Origin: Planctomycetota bacterium
GTDB taxonomy: Bacteria; Planctomycetota; Planctomycetia; Gemmatales; Gemmataceae
Direction of reading: 5' to 3'
Length of the DNA: 32,370 bases
Assembly: GCA_016872595.1 (NCBI GenBank)
Contig: VGZJ01000034.1
Span: 1-32,370, forward strand
Every line of letters starts with the position of its first letter. Position 1 is the first letter of the stretch. Shown here piece by piece: positions 1 through 8,817 of this stretch. Both the position numbers and the translations under genes were made by a program. The notes beneath the pieces are model-generated. The model saw only the letters and a list, made by a program, of their open reading frames with translations. It was not told the DNA's origin and did no database searches.

Positions 1-1
1 G

Positions 2-154
2 CGGAACCCGGGCGCGGTCGCGGCGCTCGTCGCGCACATCGACGCGGTCGGCGCGTGGGCCGACGCGCACGGCCGGTACGCCCACCCCCGGCGGAAGGAC
101 GCGCTGCTCGCCCGGTGCGCCGAGGCCCGCGCGAAACTGACCGCGGGCACGTAA
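2..154 (+). CDS. C-terminal end of an unidentified protein (partial, runs in from the left edge)
   Basis: An open frame enters from the left edge and ends at the TAA at 152-154. The visible 50 residues are rich in Ala, Arg and His and contain a helix-like stretch (GAVAALVAHIDAVGAWADAH). Third codon positions are almost all G or C, as in the genes that follow, so this looks like real coding sequence. The fragment is too short to assign a family. It is followed at 181 by a promoter-like TAGAAT and then by the hybrid kinase, so it probably ends a separate transcription unit. Confidence 0.6.
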   Translation, partial: RNPGAVAALVAHIDAVGAWADAHGRYAHPRRKDALLARCAEARAKLTAGT

Positions 155-180
155 TGTCGCCGGTTCTCGTACCAACTTGC

Positions 181-186
181 TAGAAT
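181..186 (+). promoter_or_regulatory. Candidate -10 element (TAGAAT) for the hybrid histidine kinase
   Basis: TAGAAT stands 38 bases before the ATG at 225 in GC-rich sequence. It resembles the TAnnnT hexamers found before other genes here (13180, 16706, 20847). No convincing -35 box is seen. Its position argues against the TTG start at 177, which would place the promoter inside the coding region. Confidence 0.4.
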
Positions 187-224
187 CGGTCTATCGTCTC
201 CGCACTCGCGCCCAGAGCTTGCCT

Positions 225-2180
225 ATGCCCGACCCGACACCATCTCTCCCCCCCGCGGACCAACTCCGCCACGCGGAACTGCGCCTCGCCGCGCACGTCG
301 ATAACACGCCTCTGGCCGTGACCGAGTGGGACCACGAGTCGCGGCTTATGCGGTGGAACGATCAAGCCGAGCGGCTGTTCGGATGGACCGCGGCCGAGGT
401 GCTGGGCCTGCACAGTAGCGAGGTGCCGTTCATACCCGAAGAGAACCGGACGCTCACGTTGCGGATGACCGCGGACGCGGCCAGCGGGCGGCTGCCGCGG
501 AGCGTCGTCACCGTCGCGAACCTCACGAAATCCGGCGGGGTCGTGTGGTGCGAGTGGTATTCCTCGGTCCTGTACGACGCGAACGGGCGCATGGTGTCGG
601 TACTGTCGCTGGCGCTGGACGTGACCGCGCGCCGGGCCGCGGCCGAGGCGCTCGAAGTGAGCGAGGCCCGCACCCGCGCCGCCCTCGACGGCGCGAAGAT
701 GCTGGCGTGGGACTTGGACCTGATCGCCAACAAGTGGCGCACCACGGTCGATATCCCGGACTTCTACGGGATCCCCGCGGGGCCGGACTACACGAACCCG
801 GAACTGGCGCTGCACGCGGTCCACCCGGACGACGTGCCCGCGGTGCTGGCCGGGCGCGCGCGGGCCGTCGAGACCGGCGCGCCGATGCGGTACGAGTTCC
901 GCGGTCGCGCCACGGCCGCGGACGGCGGGCCGCGCTGGTTCAGCACCCGCGGGCAGGTGCTCCGCGACGCCGCCGGCGCGCCGGTGCGCATCGTCGCCGT
1001 GACCACCGACGTCACCGAGCGCAAGCGCGCCGAAGAGGAGCGCGAGACGCTGAACCGGCAACTCCAAGACGCCCAGCGATGGGAGAGCCTCGGGGTGCTC
1101 GCGGGCGGCGTGGCCCACGACTTCAACAACATCCTCACCGTGGTGCTGGGGAGCGCCGGCCTCGCGCGGCGCGGGCTGCCCACCGGCTCTCCCGCCGCCG
1201 GGTACCTCGACCAGATCGAACAGGCGTGCCGCCGGGCCGCGGACGTGTCCCGCCAGATGCTCGCGTACAGCGGGCGCACCCTCGGGACCGGCACCCGCAC
1301 CGACCTCGCCGCGCTCGTCCGCGAGGCCGCGCCGCTGCTCGAAATCCCCACGGCCCACGCCCCGCCCCGGTTCGACCTCGGCGCGAACCTGCCGGCGATT
1401 CAAGCGGACCCGGCGCAGGTGCGCCAAGTGCTGGTGAACCTCGTCACCAACGCGGCCGAAGCGATCCCGCCGACCGGCGGGCGGATCGTCGTGCGCACGC
1501 ACGCCGACGAGATCAGCGAGGGGGCGTCGGACGGCGGGTTCCAGCTCGCGCCGCCCCCCGGCCGGTACGTCGTGCTCACTGTGACCGACACCGGCCCCGG
1601 CATGACCCCCGACGTACGCGCCCGCATGTTCGACCCGTTCTTCACCACGAAGTTCGCCGGGCGCGGGCTGGGGCTGGCCGCAGTCCTCGGCATCGTCCGC
1701 ACGCACAAGGGCGGGTTGTACGTGGCCACCGCGCCGGGGCAGGGAACGAGCGTGTCCGTGTACTGGCCCGCCTGCGCGGACGCCGCGCCCGCCCCGGCAC
1801 GCGGCCCGGTCCGCGCGCGCCCGGCAGTCGCGGCCCTCGTCATCGACGACGAAATGTTCGTGCGCGAGGTCACGGCCTCCGCGCTCCAAGAGATCGGGTT
1901 CGCCGCGGTGCTGGCCGCCGACGGGCCCACCGGCCTCGACCTGTTCCAGAAGCATCGCGACGCCATCAAGATCGCGGTGATCGACGTGATGATGCCCGGC
2001 ATGACCGGCGATCAGGTGCTCGACGCGCTCCGCGTACTGGCCCCGACCCTGCCCGCGATCCTGATGAGCGGGTTCACCGACCGCCGCGTACTCAAGACCG
2101 GCCACGGCACGCGCACCGAGTTCTTGCAGAAGCCCTTCCACCCCGAAGACCTGATGGCCCTCGTCCAGCGCTTGTTGTGA
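225..2180 (+). CDS. Hybrid sensor histidine kinase: PAS-PAS-HisKA-HATPase-receiver
   Basis: The 651-residue protein has no membrane segment or signal peptide, so it should sense a cytoplasmic signal. A first PAS domain covers about residues 22-135 and a second, PAC-like one about 150-268. Then come the dimerisation helix with phosphoacceptor His298 (GGVAHDFNNIL), the N box (Asn409), the G1 box (DTGPGM, 455-460) and the G2 box (GRGLGLA). A C-terminal receiver domain (about 536-651) carries Asp541/Asp542, phosphoacceptor Asp587 and Lys636. The HDFNN form of the H box is typical of kinases with an attached receiver. Autophosphorylation at His298 and transfer to Asp587 is expected. No DNA-binding output domain is present, so phosphate probably passes on to a phosphotransfer protein or the receiver tunes the kinase. 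I chose the ATG at 225 because of the TAGAAT at 181. The response regulator at 5677 is a possible but unproven partner. Confidence 0.93.
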   Translation: MPDPTPSLPPADQLRHAELRLAAHVDNTPLAVTEWDHESRLMRWNDQAERLFGWTAAEVLGLHSSEVPFIPEENRTLTLRMTADAASGRLPRSVVTVANLTKSGGVVWCEWYSSVLYDANGRMVSVLSLALDVTARRAAAEALEVSEARTRAALDGAKMLAWDLDLIANKWRTTVDIPDFYGIPAGPDYTNPELALHAVHPDDVPAVLAGRARAVETGAPMRYEFRGRATAADGGPRWFSTRGQVLRDAAGAPVRIVAVTTDVTERKRAEEERETLNRQLQDAQRWESLGVLAGGVAHDFNNILTVVLGSAGLARRGLPTGSPAAGYLDQIEQACRRAADVSRQMLAYSGRTLGTGTRTDLAALVREAAPLLEIPTAHAPPRFDLGANLPAIQADPAQVRQVLVNLVTNAAEAIPPTGGRIVVRTHADEISEGASDGGFQLAPPPGRYVVLTVTDTGPGMTPDVRARMFDPFFTTKFAGRGLGLAAVLGIVRTHKGGLYVATAPGQGTSVSVYWPACADAAPAPARGPVRARPAVAALVIDDEMFVREVTASALQEIGFAAVLAADGPTGLDLFQKHRDAIKIAVIDVMMPGMTGDQVLDALRVLAPTLPAILMSGFTDRRVLKTGHGTRTEFLQKPFHPEDLMALVQRLL

Positions 2181-2220
2181 CGGCGAACCCGGAGTGTCAG
2201 CGACGGGGTACGCTGCGGTC

Positions 2221-2258
2221 TTGGGCGAGCGGGGGGCGTAAGCCCCCCGCTCGCCCAA
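2221..2258. terminator. Perfect 17-bp hairpin with GTAA loop between convergent genes
   Basis: The arms 2221-2237 and 2242-2258 are perfectly complementary and enclose GTAA (2238-2241). The hairpin lies between the converging ends of the hybrid kinase (2180) and the DUF1571 gene (2265), with short A/T runs outside the arms on both sides. It fits a bidirectional terminator. It may equally be a copy of a dispersed palindromic repeat; both can be true. Confidence 0.7.
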
Positions 2259-2264
2259 ATCGAG

Positions 2265-3233
2265 TTACTTCTTCAGCCCCGCGGCGGTGAAGGTGTCCGC
2301 AGGCACCGTGGGGTTGATTTCGAGGTCGCGGAAGTAGTACGCGCCGACGAGGACGCGCGTGCCGTCCGGTTCGGTGCGGTACAGCTCGCTCCCCAGTTGG
2401 AGCCAGCGCTCGGCGTCGATGAACAGCGTGACCTCGGTGAAGCCTTCCGCGGCCACGACCTTCGGCTCGGTGCTAGCGGTGCCGCCCAACTCGAAGGCGT
2501 CGATCTCCATGCGCGTGCAGACGCGCTTGATGACGTGGCACTCGCGCCCGCCGACCTTGTCGATGGGCTTCTTGCCGAGGTACTCGAACTTGAACTCGCC
2601 GGCCGATTGGCGGGCCTTCCACGCTTCATAAGTACGTAGCATGGAGCGGTACATGCCGGCGTCGCGGATACAGTACCGCGACTGAGCTTTGGCGAGCGCG
2701 ATGTTGGGGTCGGTGGGCGAGCCGATGTCGCCGCCGAACGCGCCCGGGCGGTAAGCGATCACCTTTCCGTCCAACCCGCCGTCGGCCTTCGGGCGCTCGC
2801 TGAACAGTGAGCCTTTCAGTTCCGCGCCGAAGCCGAGCGGCTTCTTCGCCCCCTGCTTCCACTTCATAACCACCTCAATGGCGGTCTTCTTCGTCTCCGG
2901 GTCCGGCACGTCACCGCGCACCCACACGTCGATGACCTCGACGCCGGGCTCCGTCGGGTGACGCGGCTTGCCCTCCACGCGCTCTTGCTTTTCCAGCGTG
3001 AAATGCAGCGTCTGGATGCCGCTCTTGTGATACTTGGTGAGGCACTCCGAGAGCATTTCGACGGGGTTCGTGCGCGCCAGTTCGTCGAACCGCTCTTGAG
3101 AGGAGACTTCGGCTTTGGGCGTGTAGACGGGCGCGTCCGGGGGCGGCGCGCCGTGCGTCAGGTTCACGAACACGCCGTACCCGATCCCGGCGAGGAGGGC
3201 GATGATCCCGAGGCCGAATGCCGCGTTCCGCAT
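2265..3233 (-). CDS. DUF1571 family protein with N-terminal membrane anchor
   Basis: The 322-residue protein starts with a hydrophobic segment (about residues 5-25) that should be a signal anchor or uncleaved signal peptide, leaving the rest outside the cytoplasm. The body shows features of DUF1571 as found in planctomycetes: NPVEMLSECLTKYHK near residue 56, a FTLEKQERVEGK strand, a CHVIKR strand, a FIDAERWLQLG strand and a C-terminal YYFRDLEINP segment. The alternating beta-strand pattern recalls lipoprotein-carrier-like folds, but that is inference and the function is unknown. An in-frame ATG at 3332 would add 33 Arg-rich residues before the hydrophobic segment. I prefer 3233 because the hydrophobic segment then sits at the N-terminus and a purine-rich AGAGGCG precedes it. 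Confidence 0.85.
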   Translation of the reverse strand: MRNAAFGLGIIALLAGIGYGVFVNLTHGAPPPDAPVYTPKAEVSSQERFDELARTNPVEMLSECLTKYHKSGIQTLHFTLEKQERVEGKPRHPTEPGVEVIDVWVRGDVPDPETKKTAIEVVMKWKQGAKKPLGFGAELKGSLFSERPKADGGLDGKVIAYRPGAFGGDIGSPTDPNIALAKAQSRYCIRDAGMYRSMLRTYEAWKARQSAGEFKFEYLGKKPIDKVGGRECHVIKRVCTRMEIDAFELGGTASTEPKVVAAEGFTEVTLFIDAERWLQLGSELYRTEPDGTRVLVGAYYFRDLEINPTVPADTFTAAGLKK

Positions 3234-3410
3234 GATCCCGCGCCTCTGCGTGGTGGGTCGATCCCCGGACAGTGTACCCGCGCGCGACGAACGGAACAAC
3301 GCGCGCCGCAGGCGCGACAGGCCGAGGATCATGATGCGGACCCAAAGGTGTGGGGTGGAGAGAAAAGTGCGTACTTCCCGTGTTCGGCCCGCGCCCGGCG
3401 GGAACTCCAG

Positions 3411-3439
3411 TTGAAACCGCGGCGGGTCGATATTATCTG
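3411..3439 (+). promoter_or_regulatory. Candidate promoter for the hydrolase/BBP7 pair
   Basis: TTGAAA (3411-3416) is followed by an AT-rich island, TATTATCTG (3431-3439). TATTAT at 3431 gives a 14-bp spacer, which is short; TATCTG at 3434 gives 17. It lies in the 258-bp divergent gap, 50-60 bases before the ATG at 3492. Confidence 0.4.
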
Positions 3440-3491
3440 GCGGTGCGCGCCGATCCGTGCGCGCGGCGCTGCGGCCGAGAGTGCCTTCACA

Positions 3492-4343
3492 ATGAACCGG
3501 CTTGTGAAACTGTTCCTCGCGACGGGGTTGGTCGGGCTGCTCGCCACGGCGGGCGCGGCCGGGGGCGGCGCGCGCCGGCCCGCGCCGATGCCATCTGCCC
3601 CGGCCGCACCCGCCGTCGTCGAGTACCGCACGTATTGCGAATCGTGGGTGGCGCGGGCCGCGCCGACCGCGCCCGACGCGCGCCCTGTGGTGTGGGTCGT
3701 GGACGGTGCGGGCGACCTCCGGGGCTGCTCGAACGCCCTCAACACCGCGAACCAGATGGCCGGGAACACCGCGGAGATTGTCGTCTTCCCGTGGTCGCAC
3801 GGATACCGCCGGCTGCTCGCCGATCAGACCGATTGGCCGCACGCCAAGGCCCACGGCGAGAAACTGGCCGCGGCGATCCGCGACCGCAAGGCCCGCGAAC
3901 CGGGGCGGCGCGTCGTGGTCGTGGCCCACAGCGCCGGGTGCGCCGTTGCGCTGGTCGCCAGCGAGTGCCTCCCGCCGGACGCCATCGACCGCACGATTCT
4001 CCTTGCACCGAGCGTTTCGACCGGCTACGACCTGCGGCCCGCGCTGTGGACCGCGAAGGAAGGCGTGGACGTGTTCTGTAGCCGCAAGGACTGGGTGGCG
4101 CTGGGGTTCGTGGTCCGCGTGGTCGGCACAACCGACACCGGCTCCGGCCCGGCGGCCGGGCGGATGGGGTTCCGCCCGCGCGGGACTGCGGCGACCGATC
4201 CCGTCGTGAGTGCGAAGTTGCGCCAGCACTTCTGGACCGCGGAGCAGAAGTGGACCGGGCACACCGGCGGGCACCACGGGATGCACAGCCCGGCGTTCCT
4301 ACACGCCTACCTGTTCCCGCTAATCGGCGCGCCGGTGCGCTGA
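3492..4343 (+). CDS. Exported alpha/beta hydrolase-like protein
   Basis: The 283-residue protein begins with a signal peptide (MNRLVKLFLATGLVGLLATAGA) followed by a Pro/Ala-rich linker to about residue 42. A strand (VVWVVDGAGD, about 66-75) leads to a nucleophile elbow, VVVVAHSAGC, with Ser147. The A-H-S-A-G motif is a variant of G-x-S-x-G. Plausible triad partners are Asp200, in the strand ending CSRKD, and a His in the GHTGGHHGMHS cluster (257-265). The fold resembles lipase or esterase-like hydrolases, and the substrate is not evident. The His-rich cluster might bind metal instead. The start follows from the signal peptide. It is followed after 23 bases by the BBP7 gene on the same strand, so the two are probably cotranscribed. 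Confidence 0.78.
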   Translation: MNRLVKLFLATGLVGLLATAGAAGGGARRPAPMPSAPAAPAVVEYRTYCESWVARAAPTAPDARPVVWVVDGAGDLRGCSNALNTANQMAGNTAEIVVFPWSHGYRRLLADQTDWPHAKAHGEKLAAAIRDRKAREPGRRVVVVAHSAGCAVALVASECLPPDAIDRTILLAPSVSTGYDLRPALWTAKEGVDVFCSRKDWVALGFVVRVVGTTDTGSGPAAGRMGFRPRGTAATDPVVSAKLRQHFWTAEQKWTGHTGGHHGMHSPAFLHAYLFPLIGAPVR

Positions 4344-4366
4344 CGATCGCGACAAGGAGACCTCGG

Positions 4367-5602
4367 ATGCGAAGTCGCTGGGCGCTGGTGGTAGCGGTCG
4401 CGCTGGTCGGTACGCTCCGCGCCGCGGCGCAGCCGGTCCCGCCGCCCGCGCCGACACAGCTCCCGCCGATTCCGGCCGCGCCGCCCGTTGGTTTGCTCCC
4501 GCCGCTGTTGCCGGTGCCGGGCGCGACCCAGCCGCCGCTGGCCGAAGTCCCGCGGCCCGGCCCGGCCATCGAGTACGACCACGGCTACCAGTACCTGCCG
4601 GAGCGGCTGCCCGAGCGCCGCGGGGCCGATGTGTGCGGCCCGGACGGGCGCTGGTGGTTCGCGCCGTCGCTGGAACTGTCGTGGGTGCCGGCGCGGTTCG
4701 CGCCTTCGACCGTGCGCCTCGCCGTGCCGTCTCTGGCCGTGCCCGGCGGCGCGCTCCCCGGCCCGCTGGTGCCCGTGGGCGGGCGCTCGTCCGGGCGCTT
4801 CGACGCGGCCCTCAACCTGATGGGCGGCCACTGGTTCGGCGAGACCAATACGCACGGCGTCGAAGCGAGCCTGTTCATCCGCGACGCACGAAACACCTTC
4901 ACCGGGTCGTCGCCGGGATCACTGGTGCTGTTCCCGCGCGGCCGCGCGCGCGGCGCGCAGGTGGTGGCGTTCGCGGACCCGGCGACGGTGGCCGTGGTTG
5001 GCGCGTTCCCGGCCACGCTCGGCACCTTCTTCGCGTCGTTCGACGTGAACTACCGGCACAAGCTGTTCTGCTCCGACGCCGCGCGCCTCGATTTCCTGAT
5101 CGGCTACCGGCACGCCTACCTCGAAGACGAACTGTACCTCGGCGACCGGGCGACCGACCGCGACGAGGACGGCGACGACTACCGCCTGAACCGGGCCGGG
5201 GTGACGAACTCGTTTCACGGCGGGCAGATCGGCCTCGCCGGGGAAGTGCGCGCCAACGGCTGGTTCGTCGCGGGCGCGGTGAAGGTCGCGTTCGGCGGCG
5301 TCACGTCGGAGGTCGAAACGACCGGCACGTTCGTCGGCGCGGAGGCCCGCACGCTCGCCGGGTTCCGGCGCTTGGGCGCGCTCGGCCCGTTCGAGCAAAC
5401 CGAGTTCGCCGTGGTGCCCGCGCTGAACGTGCAAGTCGGGCGGCAGATCGGTGAACACGCGCGGGTCTTCGCGGGGTACTCGTTCACGTACCTGAGCCGC
5501 GCCGCCCGCTTGGGCGACGTGCTGAACCCCGCGCTCACGTCCCCGATCCTCACCACGTTCTGGGCGCAGTCCGTCGGCTTCGGGGCCGAGTTCCGGTTCT
5601 GA
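4367..5602 (+). CDS. BBP7 family outer-membrane beta-barrel protein
   Basis: The 411-residue protein has a signal peptide (to about residue 20), a Pro-rich spacer (to about 65) and then alternating strands with the hallmarks of the planctomycete BBP7 family: GRWWFAPSLELSWVPARF, SGRFDAALNLMGGHWF, VEASLFIRDARNTF and LDFLIGYRHAYLEDELYLG. It ends with strands closing on a terminal Phe (VGFGAEFRF*), the usual end of an outer-membrane barrel protein. The family is thought to form pores or structural barrels in the outer membrane; the cargo is unknown. AAGGAGA (4354-4360) is a clear ribosome binding site for this ATG. It follows the exported hydrolase, which suggests a shared envelope role. Confidence 0.9.
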   Translation: MRSRWALVVAVALVGTLRAAAQPVPPPAPTQLPPIPAAPPVGLLPPLLPVPGATQPPLAEVPRPGPAIEYDHGYQYLPERLPERRGADVCGPDGRWWFAPSLELSWVPARFAPSTVRLAVPSLAVPGGALPGPLVPVGGRSSGRFDAALNLMGGHWFGETNTHGVEASLFIRDARNTFTGSSPGSLVLFPRGRARGAQVVAFADPATVAVVGAFPATLGTFFASFDVNYRHKLFCSDAARLDFLIGYRHAYLEDELYLGDRATDRDEDGDDYRLNRAGVTNSFHGGQIGLAGEVRANGWFVAGAVKVAFGGVTSEVETTGTFVGAEARTLAGFRRLGALGPFEQTEFAVVPALNVQVGRQIGEHARVFAGYSFTYLSRAARLGDVLNPALTSPILTTFWAQSVGFGAEFRF

Positions 5603-5676
5603 CACGCGCGCCCTCCGGCGCAAGTCGCACCGCGAGAGGCGTTCGGGGTTACGCCCGCGCCTATCATGATGGTGCC

Positions 5677-6894
5677 ATGACCGACACCGTACTTATCGTG
5701 GACGACGAGGAATCCGTCCGCCGGACGTTCCACGAGTGGCTCGCCGCGGCGCTGCCGGGCGCGAACGTGTTCGCCGTTCCCGATGCGGAGTCGGCGCTCA
5801 AGGTCGCCAACGAGCACGCCGTCGATCTCGCCGTTCTCGACTGGAACCTCGGCTCCGGGTCCGACGGGCTGCGGCTCCTCGAAGACCTCGTCGAGTTCCG
5901 GCCCGACGTGGTCGCGATCCTCGTGACCGGGTTCGCGCATCAGGCCACCCCGCTCGACGCGCTCCGCATGGGCGTGCGCGACTACCTCGACAAGAACCAA
6001 GACCTGAACCGCGACACCTTCGTAACCGCGGTGCGCCGGCAACTCGACCGCATCCGCCCCGCGAAGCAGCAGCGCGAACTGAACAAGCGACTCGCGGCGT
6101 TCCGCGAGGCGGTCGAGAAGGTGCTGCCCATCGTGCGGACCTCGGCCGCGTTCAACGACCCCGTTCCGCTGCCGGCCGCGGTGAAGTCGATGCTGCGGTT
6201 CGTCACCCGCGCGGTGCGCGCCGCGGGCGGCGCGATGATCGTGCGCCACACCGCGCCCGACGGCACCGAATCGACGACCGCATACGGATCGGACGGCGAA
6301 GCGCTGCCACTGCCCGCGATGACCTTCGGCCGTTCGCTCGCGGCCAGCGTCATCAGCTTTCAAGAGCCGGTCGCGTTCAACGGCTTCGACCCCGCGACCG
6401 TCGGGCCACTAGAACTGTTGCCGTTCGAGACGGGCCGCGTCAACATTCTCGCGGCCCCGCTGCGCGTGAGCGCCGAAACGGTCGTCGTGGTCGAGTTGTT
6501 CGACAAACCCGCCCCCGGCTTTACCGACGACGACAAGCGGGTGATCGCGTCCGCGTCCGAGGTCGGCGCGGACCTGTTGCGGCAAGCGGTCGCGGAACGC
6601 CAGACGCACAAGCTCCTCTTCGACGCGGTGGAAGCGTCGCTGGAAGCGACGTCGCACCTGACCGACTTCGGGCCGGCGACCGCGGACAGCGCCCCGCCCG
6701 CGGGCGTGATGCAGCGCCTCAAGGACGGGCTGCGCGCGGACACGAACGCCGTCGCCGACCCCGATACCACACTGCGACTTGTCGAAGCCGTCCGCGCGCT
6801 CGCGTTAAGGCACGGCCCCGGCGCGGTAGACCACTGTGTGCGCGTCGTGAAGGACGTACGCAAACTGCTCGACGAGATCACAGGCACGGCATGA
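5677..6894 (+). CDS. Response regulator with GAF-like output region
   Basis: The 405-residue protein begins with a receiver domain (about 4-118). Its acidic pair is Asp9/Asp10, the phosphoacceptor Asp55 (VLDWNLG), and it has Thr84 and Lys106. The next region (about 150-315) alternates strands and helices like a GAF domain (GGAMIVRH, INILAAPLRV-like and VVVVELFDKP strands). A helical tail follows (315-405). No DNA-binding, GGDEF, HD or phosphatase motif is recognised, so output is probably through protein contact. Its stop overlaps the start of the subtilisin-like protease (ATGA, 6891-6894). Translation is therefore coupled, and the protease is the obvious candidate target. A TATCAT at 5662-5667 may be part of the promoter, only 9 bases before the ATG. 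No ribosome binding site is visible. Confidence 0.88.
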   Translation: MTDTVLIVDDEESVRRTFHEWLAAALPGANVFAVPDAESALKVANEHAVDLAVLDWNLGSGSDGLRLLEDLVEFRPDVVAILVTGFAHQATPLDALRMGVRDYLDKNQDLNRDTFVTAVRRQLDRIRPAKQQRELNKRLAAFREAVEKVLPIVRTSAAFNDPVPLPAAVKSMLRFVTRAVRAAGGAMIVRHTAPDGTESTTAYGSDGEALPLPAMTFGRSLAASVISFQEPVAFNGFDPATVGPLELLPFETGRVNILAAPLRVSAETVVVVELFDKPAPGFTDDDKRVIASASEVGADLLRQAVAERQTHKLLFDAVEASLEATSHLTDFGPATADSAPPAGVMQRLKDGLRADTNAVADPDTTLRLVEAVRALALRHGPGAVDHCVRVVKDVRKLLDEITGTA

Positions 6895-7745
6895 CGCTCC
6901 CCCCGCCACCCGCGACCGCGCCGACGGTGTTCGATCAACTGTTCGCGCTGCTCACGCCCGACAGCATCTTCGGCGATGCGCGGGCGACCGGCGCGGGCGT
7001 GTCCGTCGCCGTGATCGACTCCGGGGTCGAGCGCGCGGTGTTGGAAGAGAAGTTCCGTGCCGTGCCGATTCTGCCCATCGAGGGCGCGCAGTTCCGCGCC
7101 AGCGGCCCGCCGCTCCCCTACACCGGGCACCAGTCGTCGCCGCACGGCACCACGGTCGCCGACATCATCCTGACGCTCGCGCCACTGGTGAAGCTGTACA
7201 GTGCCGACGTGTTCGGCCCGACCGGGGCGTGCGAGGTGGAAACGGTCATCGCCGCGCTGCGCCACGCCATCGACGTATGGAAGGTGAAGGTGGTGAACCT
7301 GTCGCTCGGCGTACCGGAACACAAGCTCCAACAGCTCCCGCGGCGGCAGCAGTTGCAGCGCGCGATTGAAGAGGCGTACTTCCGCGACGTGCTCGTGTTC
7401 GCCGCGGCGCACAACGAGCACCCGCTGACGCGGAGCTACCCGGCCGCGTTCGCCCCGCCGCTCATTTCGGTCGATAAGGGCCTGTTCGCCGACCCAATGG
7501 GGTTCGCCTACAAGCTGAGCGAACAGGTCGAGTTTCAGGCGCACGGCAAGGGTTACCTGGGGCCGCTGGCGCGCGAACCGGCCACGAGTTGGGCGACCCC
7601 GCACCTCGCCGGCATCGCCGCCCGTATCCTGTCGCTGAAGCCCGACCTGAAGCCGTTCGAGATCAAGACGATTCTGTACTGGCTGTTCCGCAGCGCGAAC
7701 GGCGCGCTCGCTACTCCGCCATCTTCACCCAGTTCACCTGCGTGA
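6891..7745 (+). CDS. Subtilisin-like (S8) serine protease, apparently cytoplasmic
   Basis: The 284-residue protein carries all the subtilase catalytic motifs: Asp43 in AVIDSG, His85 in HGTTVAD, oxyanion Asn165 in AAAHNEH and Ser223 in ATSWATPHLAG, where the usual GTS is ATS. It has no signal peptide and no room for an inhibitory prodomain (about 35 residues precede the Asp motif), so it is probably an intracellular enzyme controlled in trans. It is coupled to the response regulator by a 4-base start/stop overlap, which suggests control by phosphorylation of that partner (inference). The last 12 codons (Pro/Ser/Ala-rich) overlap the end of the opposite-strand hydrolase gene by 35 bases. A similar module could instead be a scaffold with reduced activity, but every catalytic residue is present. 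Confidence 0.9.
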   Translation: MTLPPPPATAPTVFDQLFALLTPDSIFGDARATGAGVSVAVIDSGVERAVLEEKFRAVPILPIEGAQFRASGPPLPYTGHQSSPHGTTVADIILTLAPLVKLYSADVFGPTGACEVETVIAALRHAIDVWKVKVVNLSLGVPEHKLQQLPRRQQLQRAIEEAYFRDVLVFAAAHNEHPLTRSYPAAFAPPLISVDKGLFADPMGFAYKLSEQVEFQAHGKGYLGPLAREPATSWATPHLAGIAARILSLKPDLKPFEIKTILYWLFRSANGALATPPSSPSSPA

Positions 7746-8817
7746 CGAGTTGGTTCAGTGCGGCGAATGAGATGTGGGCGTTGGTCGCGAAGCGGGGCGT
7801 GCTGTTCGCCGGGAACGTCGCCAGCGTCGCGTCGCCCACGAGGAACACGTTGAAGTCCTTCGACAGGTTCTCGTAGCCAGCCGTCGTCTTGCAGAAGCAC
7901 ATGTCCGTGGCGTAGCCGGTCAGCAGCACGTGCCGCACGCCGTTCTTCTTGAGGAAGTCGCGGAGCGGGCCGTAGCCCTCGGCGTCGTAGATCACAACAT
8001 CGGCCGGATCGACCGTGACCGCGGTGCTGACCGGGATCGGCAGTTTCCAGAACCCGTCGCCGTTGTAGCGCGGCCCGGCGTCGAGACCGGGGAACTGCCG
8101 GAAGTAGTCGCTCACCGGCTTATCCGCGCTCAGGGTCAGTTTCGCGGGTAGCGGTTGGCCCTTGTAGCTGTACGCGGCCAGCGCCTTGCGCAGCTCTTGC
8201 GTGCCCGCGGCGCGCTCGTCGGCCGTCGGGGTCTTGGCGAACGAGCGGTACACCTTCGTGCGGATCGCGTCGGCCGGACCGGGCAGACTGTACATCACGA
8301 ACGCGGCCTTCCCGCGCAGCCGCTTCAGGAACGGGTCAATCACTTCCTTGGTTTGCTGCGCCGCGAGTGCGTTCTTCTCGGGCGTGCAGAAGTCCACGAC
8401 CCCGGCCGGCTCCGGCGTCTTCCAGCCCCACTCGTCGTCCACCGCCCACGGGTGAACCATGATGACTGCCGTGTCCCTCGCGCGCAGGCGGTTGGGCATC
8501 TCGACGATGCCGCGGGCGTTGTACGACCAGCGCCACGCGCGCACGTCGAGATCGCCGTTGGCGTCGTCCACGAGCCGCGCCGCCTCGAACCGCTTCGACT
8601 CGATCACCGGCTCGACGAACTGCGGGAAGTCTGCGAGCAGCGGCTTCGGATTCTGGATCGGCGTGAGCGTGTTGTCGTAGGTGCGCGGTTCCGCCTTCGC
8701 GGGGGGCGGCGCGTCGGGCGCGGCGCTGACCGCGTGCGGCGCGGGTGCAATTGCGAACACCGCGCCGAGCGCGACGAGTGCGCCGAGCGCGAACCCGACG
8801 AGGTGCGAGCGGTTCAT
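7711..8817 (-). CDS. Exported isochorismatase-like cysteine hydrolase
   Basis: The 368-residue protein has a signal peptide (to about residue 32), which is unusual for this mostly cytoplasmic family. The C-terminal part fits the isochorismatase fold: strand DVVIYDAEG, helix, strand VRHVLLTGYATDMCFCKTT with nucleophile candidate Cys307, and FNVFLVGDAT. The first core strand reads TAVIMVHPWAVDDEW, where family members usually have an Asp followed by x-Gln; that Asp appears absent or displaced to the following DDE. An insertion of about 100 residues separates the strands. The substrate is unknown. The start lies 18 bases after the upstream DUF1501 gene, making it the last gene of a PSD1-DUF1501-hydrolase set. 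Its end overlaps the convergent protease gene by 35 bases. Confidence 0.8.
   Translation of the reverse strand: MNRSHLVGFALGALVALGAVFAIAPAPHAVSAAPDAPPPAKAEPRTYDNTLTPIQNPKPLLADFPQFVEPVIESKRFEAARLVDDANGDLDVRAWRWSYNARGIVEMPNRLRARDTAVIMVHPWAVDDEWGWKTPEPAGVVDFCTPEKNALAAQQTKEVIDPFLKRLRGKAAFVMYSLPGPADAIRTKVYRSFAKTPTADERAAGTQELRKALAAYSYKGQPLPAKLTLSADKPVSDYFRQFPGLDAGPRYNGDGFWKLPIPVSTAVTVDPADVVIYDAEGYGPLRDFLKKNGVRHVLLTGYATDMCFCKTTAGYENLSKDFNVFLVGDATLATFPANSTPRFATNAHISFAALNQLVTQVNWVKMAE

Follow-up and report, generated by a model that had tools for sequence, protein, structure and literature searches.

A conserved pair of a receiver-GAF protein and a prodomain-less subtilase in the Gemmatales, a candidate two-part signalling protease

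In the window, the whole 32,370-nucleotide stretch of planctomycete DNA analysed here (contig VGZJ01000034.1), a response regulator gene is directly followed by a gene for a small subtilase of the S8 family. This pairing, the invariance of the active-site residues, the absence of a prodomain, and the relation of the GAF domain and C-terminal tail of the regulator to GAF proteins that accompany relatives of the protease in other phyla are observations. The most likely reading is that the receiver-GAF protein is a trans-acting regulatory subunit of a small cytoplasmic subtilase, so that the two genes specify one signalling protease to which the receiver was added in the Gemmatales; on balance, we consider this probable. 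Pairing alone does not prove contact between the regulator and the protease; a physical complex, the direction of control within it, and an effect of phosphorylation on the protease are what we infer. Subtilases are usually checked by their own prodomain and exported. If the reading is correct, signalling would here be linked to proteolysis in a novel way, through a cytoplasmic subtilase whose sensor is a separate subunit; such pairs occur in most of the genomes sampled from this order, whose members are unusually complex bacteria, and three phyla have them in a simpler form. The pair is clear and testable, and it hints at what a response regulator without an output may do.

The regulator gene (5677-6894, forward strand) codes for 405 aa and the protease gene (6891-7745, forward strand) for 284 aa. 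They share the start-stop overlap ATGA at 6891-6894 (forward strand), as originally predicted. A 669-aa open reading frame at 5736-7745 is the S8 frame extended upstream inside the regulator gene, and some S8 matches among the searched genomes likewise sit in open frames of more than 600 aa. At its other end, the S8 gene overlaps the 3' end of a convergent open reading frame (7711-8817, reverse strand) by 35 nt (7711-7745).

The regulator consists of a receiver, a helix, a GAF-like region and a C-terminal helical tail. The receiver domain (residues 5-111; 5689-6009, forward strand) scored 65.9 bits with Pfam Response_reg (cut-off 30.2) and contains the phospho-acceptor Asp55 (5839-5841, forward strand) with the conserved Thr84 and Lys106, which identifies the protein as a response regulator and agrees with the earlier claim of an intact receiver. 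Among 81 distinct regulators in the alignment, Asp55 was invariant (80/80 letters), as were Thr84 and Lys106 (81/81 each), while the position of Asp9 was occupied by Asp (63) or Glu (16). A predicted helix (residues 112-159; 6010-6153, forward strand) links the receiver and the GAF-like region in the structure model, where its last part (142-162) has a pLDDT below 50. The GAF-like region had also been noticed before, and it was seen again at residues 169-298 (6181-6570, forward strand), though its 24.8 bits with Pfam GAF_2 lie below the cut-off of 28.6 in the window protein. Ten of the 27 regulators scanned matched GAF_2 at E <= 0.01 (best 1.1e-7), and the assignment comes from comparing profiles with those of unambiguous GAF proteins (97%). 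The C-terminal helical tail covers residues 312-405 (6610-6891, forward strand). No DNA-binding or known enzymatic Pfam domain above cut-off was found in the window regulator, consistent with the proposed lack of such an output. RssB, which was among the receiver matches, is likewise a receiver protein without DNA-binding output that is tied to proteolysis; this response regulator presents a sigma factor to ClpXP, and its output is PP2C-like, not GAF.

The protease scored 61.5 bits with Pfam Peptidase_S8 (PF00082; cut-off 21.8), and subtilisin BPN' was matched by the family profile at 1.6e-22. Four residues were invariant in 82-83 distinct sequences: the catalytic Asp43 (7017-7019; 82/82 letters), His85 (7143-7145; 82/82) and Ser233 (7587-7589; 83/83), the last within ATSWATPHLAG, and Asn175 (7413-7415; 83/83), which we take from its position and motif to be the oxyanion residue (all forward strand). 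The original prediction had Asp43 and His85 right but placed the serine at residue 223, which is a leucine. Judged by the invariant catalytic and phospho-acceptor residues, both proteins look active. The catalytic Asp comes after only 42 residues, and the orthologues (80 distinct ones) are 254-302 aa long, with start codons picked by script; these lengths leave no room for the usual prodomain, whose absence had been correctly noted. As for the signal peptide, also claimed before to be absent, scanning the hydropathy of the N-terminal 45 residues showed no obvious signal core in the window protein, where the highest 15-residue value among the positions listed was 1.11; in orthologues the values reached 1.71. 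Because no such core was seen in the window protein, the subtilase is probably cytoplasmic.

The closest NCBIfam model of the window protease was QhpE (NF049966), at 81.5 bits against a cut-off of 165, followed by the mycosin model of type VII secretion systems (TIGR03921), at 67 bits against 278.75. Mycosins are exported and membrane-anchored, and this identity was rejected on the score. An identity as QhpE was rejected as well, on the score and on the qhp maturase model TIGR03906, for which no match above the cut-off of 453 was found in the same genome (best 31.6 bits). Matches in PHROGs were to families of unknown function and to a phage "protease" (95.9 bits); in viral contigs, 48 stretches fitted the search pattern and none was a relative.

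Across the Gemmatales, the S8 gene was present in 94 and the regulator gene in 93 of 102 genomes, at thresholds of E <= 1e-20 and E <= 1e-30, respectively. Both occurred together in 92 genomes, one alone in 3 and neither in 7 (Fisher test, p 1.5e-8, with related genomes treated as independent). The single genes were S8 without regulator in G061 (75% complete) and G068 (69% complete), and regulator without S8 in G091 (94% complete). Both genes were absent from G032, G077, G097, G098, G020, G102 and G043, three of which belong to the genus g15. Since G032, G077 and G098 are 100%, 97% and 90% complete, the module appears to be dispensable, and these seven natural losses, including the near-complete G032 and G077, would be useful for phenotype comparison. 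The S8 gene gave one match in each genome that carries it, except for two genomes with split hits, and was 82-93% identical within the genus.

Where both genes occur (92 genomes), the regulator lies directly upstream of the protease on the same strand in 78. Lack of conservation in relatives had been named beforehand as a refuting condition, and the earlier idea of a joint functional module withstands it. Adjacency was defined as at most 1,500 nt between match ends; only G040 and G041 exceed 350 nt, because their regulator matches are partial. Among the 14 other genomes, five were read as broken contigs (G022, G030, G042, G060, G064) and nine as truly separated (six of the genus g14, G111, G113, G059). 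The regulator gene of G059 (region L133:5531-6761) is seemingly split into 279 aa and a second frame, through assembly error or decay. Of the distinct linked loci fetched (71), 29 have the exact 4-nt overlap, with gaps of up to about 300 nt elsewhere, and strict coupling is thus common but not required. The pair itself matched at least 80 other loci in every one of 96 oriented loci, and the most widely shared flanking fragment matched in 11, with 6 as the best of the median locus. Flanks common to at least 10 others were present in 25 of the 96 loci, and this sharing occurs in sublineages, so part of the adjacency reflects recent descent. An operon-like layout can arise from dosage or timing alone, and the pair might be merely co-transcribed, acting in one pathway without contact or with the regulator as the substrate of the protease; no confident interface was predicted. 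However, both genes are kept where they are unlinked, even in the single-contig genome G111, where 1.65 Mb separates them, and across phyla S8 is repeatedly paired with a GAF gene, upstream in some loci and downstream in others, which makes this explanation improbable.

The Gemmatales S8 profile matched 111 of the 397 genomes of the class, and none of the matches outside the order was strong: the 17 there all scored 74 bits or less. A search of 392 genomes across the phylum gave nine small S8 proteins at 94-118 bits in seven genomes; they are prodomain-less and 242-290 aa long, with starts chosen by us. This search listed 13 places besides the module's own, of which 11 were fetched with their surroundings; G505 and G422:C124 were left out at that point, and G505 later served as a control. 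L143 and L144 (77 and 64 bits) were kept out of the family for their lower scores and, in L143, a long N-terminal part, and are two of the 22 controls described below. A GAF gene lies directly upstream of S8 in eight of the nine loci (L134, L135, L137, L138, L139, L140, L141, L142), with Pfam GAF above cut-off in L134, L135 and L137-L141 and barely so in L142. Plasmid searches added at least two clear family members among the matches listed, in Miltoncostaea oceani (Actinomycetota), where S8 and a GAF gene downstream of it share 4 nt, and in Gemmatirosa kalamazoonensis (Gemmatimonadota), where the GAF gene follows S8. Altogether, 10 of 11 outside loci from three phyla have a GAF gene beside S8, which lies upstream of it in 8 and downstream in 2; in 5 of them the genes overlap by 4 nt. 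The exception is L136, where a hybrid kinase with two receivers and an Hpt domain precedes S8 (L136:4745-9741, reverse strand) and no GAF gene adjoins it; this is a second link of the S8 family to phosphorelay.

The controls were the 22 S8 loci that ranked next in the phylum search, some on contigs that end close to S8. With surroundings of up to about 6.5 kb, a GAF-partner profile matched at one of the 22, L191, where the match of 20 bits lies 1.3 kb away from the S8 frame; within 1.5 kb around the S8 domain, a distance that often does not leave the long control genes, it matched at none of the 22. Ten partner proteins from outside the order went into the GAF profile, and their own scores against it are not independent; independent of it are the Pfam matches of the partners, the window regulator and the GAF protein of Gemmatirosa, which is absent from the profile and scored 99 bits. 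An S8 profile built from the family left a gap between about 300 and 160 bits, which shows the gap and not new members. In an arbitrarily rooted tree, the family S8 proteins and the 22 controls fell on two sides of a branch with 100/100 support.

Profile-profile comparison related the Gemmatales regulators to the outside GAF partners across both the GAF region and the C-terminal tail (97%, E 5.2e-11). The GAF region alone also gave 97%, and the tail alone reached 65.9% (hhalign; E 5.7e-5 over 41 columns), against at most 0.1% in all 20 column-shuffled tail controls. The tail is missing in three short partners (L138, L141, L142), and no receiver was found by Pfam in the 11 outside GAF partner proteins scanned. 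Since GAF and tail match the outside partners and a receiver is lacking there, GAF plus tail is probably the old partner of the protease and the receiver a later fusion in the Gemmatales line, which makes phosphorylation probably an added input. GAF domain and helical tail would then form an old protease-specific module, and with the receiver added in the Gemmatales, phosphorylation together with whatever the GAF domain senses would set protease activity or substrate access. We put forward more tentatively, as a view that may well be wrong, that two-part signalling proteases exist across phyla, in which a GAF sensor subunit, usually with a dedicated helical tail, sets the activity of a prodomain-less cytoplasmic subtilase in trans, and that the Gemmatales receiver lets the subunit read ligand and phosphorylation together.

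The partner gene is constant and 80 distinct orthologues lack a prodomain, which would also suit the mechanism proposed at first, a regulator that substitutes for the prodomain and holds the protease inactive, or helps it to fold, until phosphorylation releases it. A GAF fold, however, differs from a prodomain fold, and no receiver was detected in the 11 outside partners scanned. PopD, the partner of the subtilase PopC, is small and is not known as a response regulator. We know of no separate inhibitor of QhpE, nor of a GAF or receiver partner for it. As described in PMC6434023, PopC of Myxococcus xanthus has no signal peptide and is complexed by the separate protein PopD, which inhibits PopC secretion, a precedent for such a substitute. 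According to the account of its biogenesis role in PMC7876137, QhpE, the subtilisin-like protease of quinohemoprotein amine dehydrogenase biogenesis, is a cytoplasmic, single-turnover enzyme. Because QhpE acts in the cytoplasm and PopC has a separate partner, the absence of a prodomain needs no substitute inhibitor. The likeness to PopC and PopD, a signal-less subtilase with a separate protein partner, was drawn from the published description; PopC differs in size, at 50.8 kDa, in an additional N-terminal portion and in being secreted, so a signal-less subtilase can still be exported (PMC6434023).

An AlphaFold2 model of regulator and protease as one fused chain, whose input alignment combined 21 single proteins with 14 loci translated in frame across their stops, had a pTM of 0.40 and no confident interface, which counts against the favoured regulatory subunit as well as against the prodomain substitute. 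The latter is possible but not favoured, and we rate it as rather unlikely. The model of the regulator alone (pTM 0.43; tail pLDDT below 60) predicted receiver, helix, GAF, helix and tail, a result that at this pTM gives the order of elements only. Its best Foldseek match in the PDB was 6oap_B, a dual sensor kinase fragment of receiver-GAF make-up (324 columns, TM 0.35, rmsd 10.0).

Compared with the signalling protease favoured here, a serious rival is that the protease is narrow and largely unregulated, as in QhpE, and that the GAF protein binds or presents a single substrate as an adaptor for maturation, much as RssB does with a sigma factor for ClpXP. QhpE is the closest model of the window protease, another subtilase acting in the cytoplasm, and scored up to 122.7 bits among the S8 relatives scanned. 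In L139, a small Cys-rich open reading frame, seen by eye in the region 5742-5963, lies between the GAF-S8 pair and a gene resembling radical-SAM peptide maturases, and an ABC transporter with a cNMP domain overlaps the GAF gene (further coordinates of the cluster are 1165-3795, 3795-5398 and 6331-7785). This looks like a peptide natural-product cluster beside the pair; L140 also has an ABC transporter. On the other side, the window protease stays below the QhpE cut-off, and the maturase and transporter of L139 are below their NCBIfam cut-offs. QhpE is encoded in the qhp operon with the radical-SAM protein QhpD and the transporter QhpF, whereas the Gemmatales pair has no widely shared flank and the genome of the window no QhpD-family match above cut-off. 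An adaptor for maturation is a minority possibility, though one to be taken seriously.

Caspase-family and TPR-CHAT genes stand at the Gemmatirosa locus, and the PADLOC "subtilase" model matched the window protease (35.9 bits, E 1.4e-9), which could indicate a role in conflict or cell suicide, with the protease as an immune effector released by a sensor subunit. On the megaplasmid (L176), the order is a caspase-family gene, a sigma-like gene overlapping the S8 start, S8, the GAF gene and a TPR-CHAT gene, with cluster coordinates 1-1521 (reverse strand), 3099-3923, 3923-4672, 4264-5151 and 5189-8206. Unlike typical patchy defence genes, however, S8 occurs in 94 of the 102 Gemmatales genomes, mostly as a single match and with high identity within the genus, and an immune effector is very improbable.

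Each component of the favoured signalling protease is of a known kind, and its stable pairing, cross-phylum reach and receiver fusion appear undescribed within the open-licence PMC literature, where no paper describing such a pairing of S8 with GAF or regulator genes was found. The sections of PMC7159879 on these domains mention S8 combined with NucA or trypsin domains, name GAF as a domain that binds nucleotides, and present no S8-GAF pair. That relatives also occur in other contexts, such as the radical-SAM peptide genes near L139 and the sigma factors below, counts against the favoured reading; the S8-GAF unit seems to serve in more than one signalling setting. Outside the order, sigma-factor genes lie next to the S8 module at L141, L142, L175 and L176, with region 2 of L176 only just above cut-off. 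At L137:609-3668 (reverse strand), S8 lies between two GAF genes, followed by a 2OG-Fe(II) oxygenase gene.
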